Positions 1,194 to 11,680 of a stretch of 11,928 bases of DNA are shown here, one piece after another. Location of the stretch: assembly GCA_031283825.1 (NCBI GenBank), contig JAITAZ010000217.1, positions 1-11,928 of the forward strand, written 5' to 3'. Positions within the stretch are counted from its first letter, which is position 1, and every line of letters starts with the position of its first letter. The notes below the pieces were generated by a model that did not search any database, was not told where the DNA came from, and was given only the letters and a program-made list of their open reading frames with translations. This DNA is from Planctomycetaceae bacterium. Lineage in GTDB: Bacteria > Planctomycetota > Planctomycetia > Pirellulales > Thermoguttaceae. The translations under genes were made by a program, and so were the position numbers.

Positions 1194-2246
1194 ATGATAC
1201 CAATGCTTTTCCAAAACCTATCGCTTCAACTGAAATTAGCTCACCCACACGACTTGCTCTCGCGATACTTTTTCGACGACACAGAAATATTCGCAAATTT
1301 ATTGGAAAATTACGGCAAAACTCCAGTTATTCGACTGCTCGATTTGAAATCGCTCAAATGCGAATCGCCGACAATAATCGACAACCAACTCGAAGAAGTA
1401 ATCGGCGACTTGCTATATTCCACAAAATTCAAAAACGGTAACCACTCAAAAGTTTTCCTGTTTTTTGAACATCAATCAACCAAGATATCACAGTTTTGGA
1501 TATCATGCTTGAAAAAAATACTGAAATTTTACGAACAGTTCGCAAGCAATCCGAAAAACGCAATCGGGAAAGGCGGTAAATTTCCTTACCCGATTGTCGT
1601 TATACTCTACAACGGCGACACCCCATGGGGCGATTTCACACAACTAAAAGATATGCTATCATTGCCGCCCGAAGTAGATCGCGATTTACTATGGTTTCCT
1701 GTCATTATGATCGACTTGACGCAAATTAAACTCGAAGACATAATAGGTATGCCACCGCTAAAAGCACTTCTTGAATCATTGAAAACCGCAAAATCCGGCG
1801 AATTGCAAAACAGATTCGACCACATCATTGGACACTTCAACACAGTAAAAGACGACCCAAGAACTAAAAATTGGATAAACGCAATAACAAACTACACCCT
1901 AACAATAACAGAACTTACTAAAGAATTCGTAATCAAATCCATTTCAAAACTTTTTGGTAAAAAGGAGGCTGAAAAAATGTTCATGTCAACATTAGAAAAA
2001 AACTATCTAGAAGGTCAACTAGAAGGCGAAAGGAAAGGCGAAATAAAAGGCGAAATAAAAGGCAAACTAGAAGGCAAAAAAGATGCTGTTCTTAAATTGC
2101 TTCAAGCTCGATTTAAGAAAGTGCCTGATTTAATTTCGCGAGCTGTGAATTTGTATAGCGATCAGATTGCGTTGGATTCGTTACTTGTGCAAGCGGCAAC
2201 TTGCGAAACATTGGCAGAATTTCAACAAAATCTTGCACATATCTAA
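1194..2246 (+). CDS. Rpn-family recombination-promoting nuclease (PD-(D/E)XK, Transposase_31/YhgA-like)
   Basis: This 350-residue protein belongs to the Rpn/YhgA family of PD-(D/E)XK DNA endonucleases, annotated in databases as putative transposases. The family opening HPHD is at residues 17-20. The nuclease core shows Asp72 in GDLLYS and the E-x-Q pair Glu92/Gln94 in FEHQS, followed by PYPIVVILYNGDTPW (131-145). After residue 262 comes a highly charged, four-residue-periodic Gly/Glu/Lys segment (274-296) and a conserved tail ending in a CETLAEF motif. In E. coli, Rpn proteins promote RecA-independent recombination and are reported as antiphage toxins. The ATG at 1194 has AGGAAA nearby; 1203 is an alternative start. 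The gene contains an internal ribosome binding site and ATG at codon 262, described separately. Codon endings change from A/C to G/T near base 2085. The family call is firm; the biological role here is inferred. Confidence 0.88.
   Translation: MIPMLFQNLSLQLKLAHPHDLLSRYFFDDTEIFANLLENYGKTPVIRLLDLKSLKCESPTIIDNQLEEVIGDLLYSTKFKNGNHSKVFLFFEHQSTKISQFWISCLKKILKFYEQFASNPKNAIGKGGKFPYPIVVILYNGDTPWGDFTQLKDMLSLPPEVDRDLLWFPVIMIDLTQIKLEDIIGMPPLKALLESLKTAKSGELQNRFDHIIGHFNTVKDDPRTKNWINAITNYTLTITELTKEFVIKSISKLFGKKEAEKMFMSTLEKNYLEGQLEGERKGEIKGEIKGKLEGKKDAVLKLLQARFKKVPDLISRAVNLYSDQIALDSLLVQAATCETLAEFQQNLAHI
1957..1979 (+). promoter_or_regulatory. Internal ribosome binding site and start codon within the Rpn gene
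   Basis: AAAAAGGAGGCTGAAAAAATG places GGAGG at 1964-1968 and ATG at 1977-1979 with an 8 nt spacer. It is embedded in coding sequence for GKKEAEKM. The 28 bases 1957-1984 recur identically at 2248-2275 in front of the duplicate tail gene, where no coding constraint forces them to stay the same. Confidence 0.7.
1977..2246 (+). CDS. Candidate intragenic small protein from the 3' end of the Rpn gene (RpnS-like antitoxin)
   Basis: An in-frame ATG at codon 262 of the nuclease gene lies 8 nt after a perfect GGAGG (1964-1968), the best Shine-Dalgarno in the window and better than that of the full-length gene. Translation from it gives 89 residues: a short MFMSTLEKNYLEG start, a charged segment of repeated EGK/KGE tetrads likely to be helical, and the conserved RFKKVPDLISRAV tail. 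For E. coli Rpn proteins an internally initiated C-terminal product has been reported that inhibits the full-length toxin. The same architecture is seen here, and the adjacent duplicate starts at exactly the equivalent ATG. Expression and antitoxin activity are inferred, not shown by sequence alone. Confidence 0.55.
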   Translation: MFMSTLEKNYLEGQLEGERKGEIKGEIKGKLEGKKDAVLKLLQARFKKVPDLISRAVNLYSDQIALDSLLVQAATCETLAEFQQNLAHI

Positions 2247-2267
2247 TGTAAAAAGGAGGCTGAAAAA

Positions 2268-2561
2268 ATGTTCATATCAACGTTAGAAAGAACCTATCTA
2301 GAAGGTAAAATAGCAGGCAGATTAGAAGCCAAACTAAAAGCCAAAGTAGAAAGCAAACTAGAAGCCAAGCTAGAAGGCAAAATAGAAGCTCAAAAGGATG
2401 CTATTCTTAAATTTCTTCACATTCGATTTAAGAAAGTGCCGGATTTAATTTTGCAAGCTGTGGATTTGTATAGTGATCCGGTTGTGTTGGATTCGCTTTT
2501 TGATCGTGCGATAACTTGTGAATCGTTGACAGATTTTATAAGAGACCTTGTAAATATTTGA
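2268..2561 (+). CDS. Stand-alone duplicate of the Rpn C-terminal tail (putative free antitoxin or remnant)
   Basis: This 97-residue product matches only residues 262-350 of the upstream nuclease. It shares the MF(M/I)STLE start and the RFKKVPDLI tail, with about half the residues identical after that. Its central charged segment is about 8 residues longer (repeated AKLEAK/EGKIEA). It starts at an ATG behind GGAGG (2255-2259, 8 nt spacer), identical to the internal site of the upstream gene, and follows that gene's TAA by 21 nt. It is in the same frame as the nuclease gene and separated by that single stop, so rare read-through would fuse them. There is no nuclease core, so it cannot be an active Rpn. 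It is either a dedicated inhibitor of the Rpn protein, made as a second gene copy, or a fragment of a decayed tandem nuclease gene. The open frame and the preserved RBS favour function. It is not a textbook annotated family on its own. Confidence 0.7.
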   Translation: MFISTLERTYLEGKIAGRLEAKLKAKVESKLEAKLEGKIEAQKDAILKFLHIRFKKVPDLILQAVDLYSDPVVLDSLFDRAITCESLTDFIRDLVNI

Positions 2562-6370: not shown

Positions 6371-6925
6371 ATGGGTAGAGCAGTTGGGGCGGTTGAGTTG
6401 TCTAGTATTGGGGTAGGATACAAAGTACAGGATTCTATTCTCAAAGAGGCTACGGTCGAGATGTTAGTCGCGCGTACGATTTGCAGCGGCAAATATTTTA
6501 TGATTTTCAGCGGAGGCGTTAGCGATGTCGATTCAGCTGTTGAATGCGCAGAACGTGTCGGCGGAGACGCACTAATTGATAGAATTTCTGTTGCGAATGC
6601 TTACGAAGGAATTTTTCCGGCATTAGGACAATCGGTAGTCTTGGATTCAGACAAAGTTGATTCTCTTGGTTTGATAGAAACATTCAGCGGAGTAAGCGTT
6701 ATTGTTGCCGCAGATTATGCCGGAAAGTCGGCGGATGTTACTTTGTTTAGATTACAAATCGCTATGGCGTTAGGCGGAAAAGGATTACTCCTAATGACAG
6801 GAAGCGTATCAAATGTTACAACCGCAGTTGCCGCCGCGTCTGAAGCCGTCCGTCAAAGAGGTTTATTAGTCTCAGAATTAGTAATCCCAAGACCAAATAA
6901 AGAACTATTCCAAGATTACATTTGA
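6371..6925 (+). CDS. Tandem-domain bacterial microcompartment shell protein, PduT-like (BMC-T)
   Basis: The 184-residue protein contains two BMC domains in tandem (about 4-90 and 97-181), so three chains form a pseudohexameric facet tile of a protein organelle. It aligns along its whole length with Salmonella PduT as I recall it: ELSSIG near the start, MLVARTICSGKYF (31-43), LGLIET opening domain 2, and ending GLLVSELVIPRP. Cys38 in TICSGK coincides with the PduT cysteine whose three copies hold a 4Fe-4S cluster at the trimer pore, so an electron-transfer or redox-pore role is inferred. Planctomycetes use microcompartments for fucose and rhamnose breakdown. No other shell or enzyme gene of such an operon is in this window, so this copy is solitary and has its own promoter. 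Early codons end in G/T and late codons in A/C. The start is supported by AAGG about 9 bases upstream. Confidence 0.93.
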   Translation: MGRAVGAVELSSIGVGYKVQDSILKEATVEMLVARTICSGKYFMIFSGGVSDVDSAVECAERVGGDALIDRISVANAYEGIFPALGQSVVLDSDKVDSLGLIETFSGVSVIVAADYAGKSADVTLFRLQIAMALGGKGLLLMTGSVSNVTTAVAAASEAVRQRGLLVSELVIPRPNKELFQDYI

Positions 6926-6982: not shown

Positions 6983-9205
6983 GTGTCATCAAGAAACGCC
7001 AATACATCTAAATCTAGCGTAAAAAAATCTGTCCGCGAATCCGGCAAGTCTAATTCTACGGAAAAATCTGTTCGTAAAAATGCTCGTAATAATTCTAACA
7101 ATAATTCTAACTCTAGCTCTAAAACTAAAACTAAAACAACAAGTAAAAACGAACCCGAAGTTTCTTGGCTTGTTATTCGCGATGCGAAAGAGCATAATCT
7201 TAAAGGTATAAATATTTCTTTTCCGATTGGTGCTTTTAGCGTCGTTACTGGAGTTAGCGGAAGTGGGAAAAGTTCGCTTGTTCACGATGTTATTTGGAAA
7301 TCTCTTGCCAAAGTTCTTAATCGAAATACAAGCGAGTCTCTTGCCAAAGTTAAATCGATTAGCGGAATTGAATATCTCAATAAAGTTATAAGCGTCAACC
7401 AGCAACCAATCGGACAAACGCCAACCTCAAATCCTGCGACCTACACCGGAATATTCGACCTAATCCGCGAACTGTTCGCCAAATTGCCCGATTCCAAACT
7501 ACGCGGTTACTCTGCAAGACGTTTCAGTTTCAACGTGCCGGATGGTCGATGCGAAAAATGCGAGGGTGCTGGTCAAATCAAAATTGAAATGCACTTTCTA
7601 CCCGACGTATGGATCACTTGCGACGCCTGCAACGGGAAAAGATACGATAGACAAACTCTCGACGTTAAATATCACGGTTACTCAATCGCGGACGTCCTCG
7701 AAATGACTTGTGCAGACGCGATAAAATTATTCGAAAACGTTCCGCGAATTCGTAAAACTTTACAGTTACTTTGCGATGTCGGACTAGATTATTTATCTCT
7801 TGGTCAATCTGCGCCGACATTGTCTGGCGGAGAATCGCAACGAATCAAACTCGCCTCCGAATTAACTAGACCTGATACCGGTCGAACTCTGTACTTGCTC
7901 GACGAACCAACAACCGGATTGCATTTCGACGACATGAATAAATTATTACACGTTATTCATCGGCTAGTCGATATCGGAAACACCGTGATCGTAATCGAGC
8001 ATAATCTCGACATAATAAAAAACGCCGATTGGATTGTTGATTTAGGTCCAGAAGCCGGAGATAACGGCGGATATTTGCTGTTTGAAGGAACGCCGGAAGA
8101 ACTAATAAATAGCGGCATCAAAAGCCACACGGCAGACGCTCTCAAGCCGATTCTGCAAAATGGTTTGTATCAAGAGCGAATGACTTTCGATTCGGCAAGT
8201 CTGGATGATTTGCATAACGATAACGTGTCGGACAAAGAACTCGGAATCGATAATAAAATGCCTTGGGAAAAAAACGGCATGAAATGGCATACGCAAGATT
8301 GTCTATGCCGTAAGGGAACTCCGGTCAAATGGGATGGAAAAATTCTGTCGGAGATTGTTAATCGGATTGAGTTGTCGGGTCAATTGGCGTCAACGGATTG
8401 GAATCATAAAGCGGTTGTGGAGATTTGTTCGGAGAAAAAATCGCTAGGCTGGTTTATGCGGGCGATTACAAACGACGAATGGATTTTAAGAATTAAATTC
8501 AAAACCGGAAGCGGCACGTTCAAACGAGATTCGCTTATTGCGTCGTTGGCGTTGAGACCGTTTAGCGAAATTGATTCAATACCGATTTATAACGCCGAAC
8601 CAAGAGTTAAAGTTCAACGAAACACAATACAATGGCAAGAAATCGAATTGCAGCTTCACTCGTTTGAGGAAATTGATCGTCCTCAATTTTACGACTTTTT
8701 AGACGTTGCGATTCAAGGGCTTTCGCGATTTACAAAGCCGTCGGAAAAGAAGCCGGCAGACCTTATGCCTTGGAATGTGTTGGGCGAGAAGTGGCATTTT
8801 ATCCAGCGAGGTTTAATAGGCGGCGATAAACTGATATGGGATACGTCGATGCTAACGGAGATTTTTAATCTCTTACGTGAAACTTCGCAGGACATAAAAA
8901 TTATCTGGACGAATAAATCTTTTGTGCAATTTTTTTGCGAAAACAGAAAAAATAATTTGTCGAATAAACTTACGGACGATCTACAAAAATTACCCTTCGC
9001 AACCGTACACACAAAACAAGTTGAATTTATTCAGTTAGATTTATATGTTGAGAAAAATTCGATTACGTCGGAAAAAATCGAAAAATTAGAATTCGAAAAT
9101 CAAGAAATCGAATCGCATAAAGATTACGACATAGTAAAATTAAATTTCAAAAAAGAAAACGATATAAAAAAATCAGCATTATTAAAGTTGTTGAAAGAAA
9201 TTTAA
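6983..9205 (+). CDS. UvrA C-terminal-half homologue with a single ABC module and a duplicated C-terminal extension
   Basis: This 740-residue ATPase is related to UvrA, the damage-sensing subunit of nucleotide excision repair. Residues 1-57 are a disordered Lys/Ser/Asn-rich stretch. Residues about 58-392 correspond to the second half of UvrA: Walker A GVSGSGKSS (90-98), the Q-loop region QPIGQTPTSNPATYTG (141-156), a zinc module Cys190/193 and Cys213/216, signature LSGGESQRIKL (280-290), Walker B YLLDEPTTGLH (304-314) and H-loop EHN (339-341). The first UvrA ABC module and the UvrB-binding domain are missing. Residues 427-740 are not canonical UvrA and contain two related modules beginning MPWEKNGMKWH (426) and MPWNVLGEKWH (595). 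Planctomycetes are known, from memory, for very large UvrA-like proteins; this may be a split part whose partner is elsewhere. The start is GTG: an in-frame stop at 6959 excludes much extension, and no SD is visible. Confidence 0.9.
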   Translation: MSSRNANTSKSSVKKSVRESGKSNSTEKSVRKNARNNSNNNSNSSSKTKTKTTSKNEPEVSWLVIRDAKEHNLKGINISFPIGAFSVVTGVSGSGKSSLVHDVIWKSLAKVLNRNTSESLAKVKSISGIEYLNKVISVNQQPIGQTPTSNPATYTGIFDLIRELFAKLPDSKLRGYSARRFSFNVPDGRCEKCEGAGQIKIEMHFLPDVWITCDACNGKRYDRQTLDVKYHGYSIADVLEMTCADAIKLFENVPRIRKTLQLLCDVGLDYLSLGQSAPTLSGGESQRIKLASELTRPDTGRTLYLLDEPTTGLHFDDMNKLLHVIHRLVDIGNTVIVIEHNLDIIKNADWIVDLGPEAGDNGGYLLFEGTPEELINSGIKSHTADALKPILQNGLYQERMTFDSASLDDLHNDNVSDKELGIDNKMPWEKNGMKWHTQDCLCRKGTPVKWDGKILSEIVNRIELSGQLASTDWNHKAVVEICSEKKSLGWFMRAITNDEWILRIKFKTGSGTFKRDSLIASLALRPFSEIDSIPIYNAEPRVKVQRNTIQWQEIELQLHSFEEIDRPQFYDFLDVAIQGLSRFTKPSEKKPADLMPWNVLGEKWHFIQRGLIGGDKLIWDTSMLTEIFNLLRETSQDIKIIWTNKSFVQFFCENRKNNLSNKLTDDLQKLPFATVHTKQVEFIQLDLYVEKNSITSEKIEKLEFENQEIESHKDYDIVKLNFKKENDIKKSALLKLLKEI

Positions 9206-10495: not shown

Positions 10496-11680
10496 ATGAG
10501 AATCCTAAATTTGAATGTAGCTTGCATCAGTCTAGCGATGCTTTTGGGCGTAACAATTTCTAATATAGAAATTGCAAACGCAGAAACCATTTATCTTGGA
10601 ACTGGAAGCCCAGTTTACAGTGGTGAAAACGGTACCACAAAAAATGTTACTGGAACTGTTACAGACAAAGATAAGAACGGTTTAGCTGATGGCGATGTAT
10701 TTTTGCGTGAAGCCTCTGATAAATATGGAGACAGTACAAATACTCGCGATGTGAATTGGTATGTTACTTACACAGACACATTTGCTTCCGAATACGATAA
10801 GTATTTTGCTGGAGACGCTTCTAAAATAAATGCGCGACGTGCTGCTGTTGAAGAATCGTTGAAAGGACATGGTAGTGAAGCTCTCGGATACAAAGACTCT
10901 TGGGTTTATGGACCTAGTGTGTCGAACTTTATAGGTTCGACTGGCGTTAAACCCGCTGGAGTTGTTTATGAAAGCTCAGCAGATTTATTGGGCGATATTG
11001 CTATGAATCAAGGCGGACTTTCGAATTTCGCAGTCGGTAACGCTGGCGTTTTGACAACTTTCGGCGGCGGCTTTTTTGACGAAGCCGGTCAATTCAAATA
11101 TGGTGCTGACGATAATATTACTTATACCGGAAATCATAGTGATGTGAGTAAACCAGAAGAGAAAGTTGGTTTTACGGCGGTTCAATCTGGTGTAGTTGCT
11201 TTCACAACTGGTTTTACCAAAGACGCAACAACGGCAGGATTCAATTATATCAATGGTACGTTTGCGGTTTTAGGCGAGTTGCTTGGAATTTATCTCAATG
11301 GTACGCTTTTGGATCCAAGTCAATATTTTTTGAGTGATGATATGATTAGCGGCGGTTATAATTATGCAGCAGAATATAATTTTGAAATTGACCTTAGTAA
11401 ATTTCAAGATTTGCTTGTGAATGGCAATAATAATCTTTCGTTCATGTTACTTGGTGTTCCGTTAGAATTTTCTGGCGTAGATAGCCACACTTATAACGAC
11501 AGCATGTCATTCATTCATTTTTCGGCAGACATAGTTCAAAACACTGAATCGATAATAGGTAATCCTCCTCCGCCACCACCGCCACCGTCAACTCCCGAAC
11601 CAGCGACGATGTTAATTGTCGGATTAGGAATCGCCGGACTTGGATTGAGAAAGAAACTAATGAGCAAAAAATCCGCGTAA
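10496..11680 (+). CDS. PEP-CTERM sorting-domain surface/exopolysaccharide-associated protein
   Basis: This 394-residue protein is predicted to be exported and handed to an exosortase. The signal peptide (1-29) ends in ANA, before ETIYLG. The C-terminus has the full tripartite sorting signal: PEPAT (367-371), a hydrophobic helix LIVGLGIAGLGL, then basic RKKLMSKK. Between them lies a mature region of about 320 residues rich in Gly, Asp, Asn, Ser and Thr with no recognised catalytic motif. A run of eight prolines (357-364, bases 11564-11587) stands just before the sorting signal, probably as a rigid spacer, and would demand EF-P/EfpL help in translation. The ATG is set by GGGGAGA six bases upstream. 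Expression is probably sigma-54-dependent, and a strong terminator follows, so the gene is monocistronic. PEP-CTERM proteins occur only in organisms with exosortase and extracellular polysaccharide loci, which must lie elsewhere. The function of the mature domain is unknown. Confidence 0.9.
   Translation: MRILNLNVACISLAMLLGVTISNIEIANAETIYLGTGSPVYSGENGTTKNVTGTVTDKDKNGLADGDVFLREASDKYGDSTNTRDVNWYVTYTDTFASEYDKYFAGDASKINARRAAVEESLKGHGSEALGYKDSWVYGPSVSNFIGSTGVKPAGVVYESSADLLGDIAMNQGGLSNFAVGNAGVLTTFGGGFFDEAGQFKYGADDNITYTGNHSDVSKPEEKVGFTAVQSGVVAFTTGFTKDATTAGFNYINGTFAVLGELLGIYLNGTLLDPSQYFLSDDMISGGYNYAAEYNFEIDLSKFQDLLVNGNNNLSFMLLGVPLEFSGVDSHTYNDSMSFIHFSADIVQNTESIIGNPPPPPPPPSTPEPATMLIVGLGIAGLGLRKKLMSKKSA

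Follow-up and report, generated by a model that had tools for sequence, protein, structure and literature searches.

A probable intragenic antitoxin in a planctomycete Rpn nuclease gene, with an internal start signal under selection and a tandem tail copy

Does an Rpn-family nuclease gene encode one protein, or does a strong start signal within it yield a second, the antitoxin to the first? The question is raised by an open reading frame (ORF) at positions 1194–2246 (+ strand) of an 11,928-nucleotide (nt) stretch of Planctomycetaceae DNA, here called the window, which is the entire contig C639 of the metagenome-assembled genome (MAG) G000 (3.46 Mb, 73% complete). A preliminary description had proposed an internally started antitoxin at this gene; the internal start signal stood up to our analysis, while a stand-alone second copy of the tail and many paralogues had been overlooked. 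We read the gene, with a probability of roughly 0.83, as a toxin–antitoxin gene-within-gene of the RpnL/RpnS type, a kind already known from Zhong et al. (2023, PMC10327210). Our additions are four: the tandem copy; evidence, drawn from many homologues, that the start is under selection; the finding that copies do not match their neighbours in repeat number; and a second nuclease family that bears the module. In a literature search with scant coverage of subscription journals, that paper was the only one found on the system, and no title listed dealt with planctomycete Rpn proteins or the second nuclease family.

The ORF opens with ATG and encodes a 350-residue RpnL-type nuclease, residues 18–220 of which match PF04754 (Rpn/YhgA-like) with 86.5 bits against a cut-off of 21 (E = 2.5e-24), in agreement with the family identity first proposed. 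Across an alignment of 50 sequences, D72, E92, H93, Q94 and S95 are invariant, comprising the E-x-Q motif and the catalytic acidic residue, and the window's D72 and EHQS line up with their counterparts in E. coli RpnE; judged by its residues, the catalytic motif is intact. The NCBIfam subfamily model TIGR01784 scored the window protein at 33.3 bits, below its curated cut-off of 52.1, despite which NCBI records name close relatives as Rpn family. PADLOC gave no match for the two proteins submitted, a sequence search of solved structures gave no convincing match, and one scan of viral contigs, with a single protein query that detects close relatives only, found no relatives. Rpn genes 50–53% identical to that of the window are present in two Planctomycetaceae MAG records, which bears out the planctomycete host suggested earlier.

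Within this gene, an AGGAGG Shine–Dalgarno sequence at 1963–1968 (+) precedes an ATG at 1977–1979 by an 8-nt spacer. This ATG is codon 262 of the nuclease ORF ((1977 − 1194)/3 = 261), the codons before it read KKEAEK, and it opens an in-frame intragenic ORF (1977–2246, +) for an 89-residue tail protein, the predicted RpnS antitoxin by alignment with the tail family. The perfect GGAGG, the spacing and the reading frame given in the preliminary description can all be read directly in the sequence, and its statement that the ATG stands where the charged tail domain begins agrees with our predicted structure, in which a single long helix spans residues 256–307 (52 residues) and is followed by helices at 312–319, 324–336 and 340–349. 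The long helix bears six four-residue (12-nt) units, LEGQ LEGE RKGE IKGE IKGK LEGK, at tail residues 11–34 (2007–2078, +). As had also been noted, the internal signal is stronger than that of the gene itself, which has just AGGA 10 nt upstream of 1194, a weak Shine–Dalgarno sequence. Other gene starts in the window, as taken here (2610, 4218, 6371, 6983 and 9558), are without a clear upstream Shine–Dalgarno sequence, so that AGGAGG at 1963, and again at 2254 before the downstream copy described below, stands out. The 16S rRNA 3′ ends of two same-genus genomes (L153, L154) read GGATCACCTCC and include CACCTCC; the anti-Shine–Dalgarno sequence is therefore present in the genus, and a search of G000 itself found no 16S gene. 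Two sigma-70-like matches lie on the + strand at 1635–1744; with three such matches in the region and 4.5 expected by chance, there is no excess that would point to an internal promoter of the kind present in E. coli rpn genes.

We asked whether the internal signal is kept beyond what the codons require. A family-wide search gave a match in 47 of 119 genomes, and G000 alone gave 30 hits with the whole protein and 42 with the tail profile, some of them pieces. From G000 and its family, homologous ORFs were picked by protein similarity, the signal not being a criterion; 43 of 128 tail ORFs were dropped as not full-length, leaving a non-redundant set of 85. The signal was defined as a 5- or 6-nt Shine–Dalgarno sequence in the hinge region, followed after 5–10 nt by an in-frame ATG or GTG, the hinge being placed by a tail profile that was itself built mainly from tails cut at the signal-bearing Met. 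A hinge signal was present in 75 of the 85 ORFs, compared to 6.7 expected from synonymous codon resampling with observed usage, and the highest of 200,000 simulated totals was 18. When each 40%-identity cluster was reduced to a single representative, the count was 11 of 15 (0.94 expected), and among 251 other in-frame ATGs of the same genes only three carried the signal. Four of the 85 ORFs belong to a second nuclease family discussed below; without them the count was 71 of 81 (5.9 expected).

In the window's own subfamily (at least 40% identity; the closest homologues are 44–58% identical to the window protein), 37 of 39 members carried the signal, compared to 3.0 expected, all 37 with GGAG; the other two (L122, L124) had GAGG 5 nt before the ATG. 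In 33 of the 37, GGAG is spelled NNG-GAG, the residue ahead of the glutamate being K, Q, T or M, and in the remaining four it uses the glycine codon GGA after K or E, in genes that use AAA 944 times vs 188 for AAG and GAA 996 times vs 209 for GAG. These four letters, kept while the residues change, are the clearest sign of selection on the nucleotides. Relative to the codons, the 75 signals of the whole set are divided among the three possible phases as 49, 17 and 9, the second-family ORFs supplying four of the 17. Resampling, control ATGs and phase shifts together rule out a by-product of codon use or protein constraint. We conclude from these comparisons that the internal start signal is present and under selection, and initiation at 1977 is strongly indicated by the same evidence. 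The outcome that the preliminary description had set as refuting its proposal, absence of the GGAGG-ATG pair from close homologues, is contradicted. Only 6 of 72 Rpn-type ORFs (72 of the 81 were examined) had a strong signal before any candidate N-terminal start codon, all six in the window's subfamily, from which 35 ORFs were examined. Because the nuclease's own start is so seldom strong, we infer an excess of tail over nuclease.

What would the tail do? By homology to E. coli, both products would be made and would bind each other, with binding inhibiting the nuclease and the pair serving in defence. Weak initiation at 1194 would yield the full-length protein, a presumed PD-(D/E)XK-type DNA nuclease and the toxin; initiation at 1977, the strong internal site, would yield just the C-terminal tail of 89 residues, the antitoxin. 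The tail's long repeat-bearing helix may pair with the same helix of the full-length protein and hold the nuclease inactive; were this pairing lost, the nuclease would be released, probably in defence against phage. Conservation tells us that the tail product matters and is silent on its action, so the internal start could instead be used to make a structural or regulatory partner, such as a needed subunit, and Zhong et al. (PMC10327210) cite Cas10d/Cas11d as a case where the internal product assists. We regard such a partner as unlikely, since the E. coli tail blocks the nuclease both in vitro and in vivo (PMC10327210), and a strong tail start set against a weak nuclease start suits an inhibitor in excess.

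The tail is also present a second time. A repeat search and alignment identified a 291-bp tandem duplication comprising start signal, tail and stop, the first copy of which lies at 1957–2247 (+; start-to-start distance, 291). Beyond the nuclease stop, a second AGGAGG at 2254–2259 (+) precedes the ATG of a stand-alone, 97-residue tail gene at 2268–2561 (+), a second RpnS-like gene that also matches the tail profile. The start regions of the internal site and the copy are identical over 28 nt, and the copy differs from the 89-residue tail by two extra four-residue units (a 24-nt gap in the alignment). Since 1957–2247 is tandemly duplicated, 2268–2561 is a separate ORF with its own start region; the duplication has produced a second tail gene that now stands two repeat units apart from the first.

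Such pairs recur at other loci. We found 31 adjacent tail pairs and analysed 27, four being without a recognisable hinge; the stretches were picked from the best loci among the matches listed, and hence give no overall frequency of downstream copies. Pooled over the last 50 residues of the 27 pairs, the ratio of nonsynonymous to synonymous differences (pN/pS) was 0.34, indicating constraint; the window's own pair is fast-changing (nonsynonymous divergence dN 0.27, synonymous divergence dS 0.31). Identity before the ATG spanned the Shine–Dalgarno sequence in 16 of 20 toxin-plus-copy pairs (median 18 nt), and the unit that is duplicated or kept is therefore the start signal plus the tail. In a best-match test, 24 of 27 downstream copies scored highest against a tail of the locus to which they belong, the pattern that repeated independent duplications should leave; the window's copy is among the three exceptions, scoring 139 to its neighbour and 147 to L036. 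Some loci hold two copies in a row (L101; G000:C216). At the latter (L021, L024), the near-identical tandem stand-alone tail genes lie at a contig end and have a weaker GAGG start signal.

The number of repeat units is a point on which the copies and their neighbours part. Of 27 adjacent pairs, 2 had tails of equal length; of 116 pairs of unlinked tails whose C-termini are 80% identical or more, 9 did, which rules out length mismatch as a special trait of downstream copies. Among the 25 unequal pairs, that of L021 differs solely in having a C-terminal extension, and in one of L061 the choice of start codon accounts for part of the difference. As adjacent and unlinked tails alike are rarely equal, the repeats appear simply to change fast, and the copies keep no register with their neighbours. 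This bears on whether the stand-alone gene at 2268–2561 is now the working antitoxin, with the internal site left over from its birth. Its ORF is intact and its ribosome-binding site identical, yet we consider this role very improbable: 75 of 85 ORFs retain the internal site, where analysable toxin-plus-copy pairs number just 20, and tail length is unlike the neighbour's in 18 of those 20, when in E. coli RpnC a single added four-residue unit was enough to abolish neutralisation (Zhong et al. 2023, PMC10327210).

Comparable pairs occur in E. coli. We examined 8 of 20 listed matches plus K-12, chosen for length differences and from strains that are related rather than independent. Repeat number differed in all six of the rpnE–ypaA pairs examined. 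Three further E. coli records (L211, L212, L213) carry an rpnE with a YpaA-type C-terminus and have no downstream ypaA; by sequence, these look like genes whose tail was replaced by the downstream copy through deletion, and such rpnE/ypaA fusions are mentioned by Zhong et al. (PMC10327210).

The start signal and tail also occur in a second PD-(D/E)XK-like nuclease family, in which 27 of 32 ORFs (4 of 36 were dropped) carried both parts of the module. Four of these ORFs are from G000, on contigs C677 (L012), C297 (L023), C25 (L019) and C11 (L080), and enter both the set of 85 and the set of 32. The N-terminal parts of the two families do not align, and that of the second family had no match in a local copy of Pfam; their tails are up to 85% identical across the families. 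It is possible, though we would put it somewhat short of an even chance, that the start signal plus tail forms a portable antitoxin module, present in two or more PD-(D/E)XK-like families with tails moving between them, and that the out-of-register tandem copies are spare tail cassettes, swapped in by recombination at the shared start region. Toxin tail and antitoxin being the same DNA, one swap event would alter both partners together, and the E. coli rpnE genes with a YpaA-type C-terminus and without ypaA would look like finished swaps. Exchangeable tail and nuclease parts also make a fusion origin plausible, but that GGAGG-ATG is now merely a functionless by-product of K-E-A-E-K-M or an old gene-fusion relic is scarcely credible, given 75 signals vs 6.7 resampled, their retention over different residues and in all three phases, and the decay to be expected of a relic at 44–58% identity.

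Elsewhere in the window, a BMC-domain protein at 6371–6925 has two matched stretches and is likely a tandem microcompartment shell protein, and the protein encoded at 10496–11680 has a C-terminal PEP-CTERM sorting motif. A 740-residue ORF at 6983–9205 matches Pfam ABC_tran and, weakly, SMC_N; we think it resembles the C-terminal half of UvrA, extended at its own C-terminus by a stretch without a match.

These results supply evidence, from sequence, that selection acts on an intragenic antitoxin start in a lineage remote from E. coli and C. difficile, the organisms whose genes were tested by Zhong et al. They suggest that many nuclease genes annotated as transposase or hypothetical conceal a second, unannotated protein, and that the antitoxin module is not bound to one nuclease family. 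The downstream copies can now be put to the test as back-up antitoxins, decoys or tail cassettes.

The nearest known system is RpnL/RpnS of E. coli, especially rpnE with its downstream ypaA (rpnES). Internal initiation, antitoxin action, four-residue repeats and rpnS copies downstream have all been described in that species, and YpaA protein was detected; when expressed from a clone in E. coli, a C. difficile gene likewise gives an internal product (Zhong et al. 2023, PMC10327210). The window shares with rpnE/ypaA an Rpn nuclease, a strong in-frame internal start at the tail, a helix of four-residue repeats and a tandem stand-alone copy with a near-identical ribosome-binding site. It differs in that its protein is only 19% identical to K-12 RpnE, comes from another phylum and is known here from sequence alone; RefSeq lists K-12 RpnE as inactive and ypaA as a pseudogene, although its protein was detected. 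The window's tail has 89 residues, compared to 56–88 in the E. coli records examined, and is predicted, in a monomer model only, to form four helices, the first at 256–307, where RpnAS has a three-helix bundle (PMC10327210). Some stand-alone RpnS proteins go under the name DUF4351 (PF14261), according to Zhong et al. (PMC10327210); against that model's cut-off of 25 bits, the L025 tail passes at 27.4 and the window tail falls below at 14.9. Cas10d/Cas11d, as cited in the same paper, resembles the window gene in drawing a second product from an internal start of one gene, but there the small product, Cas11d, assists Cas10d, unlike the inhibitor we presume here.
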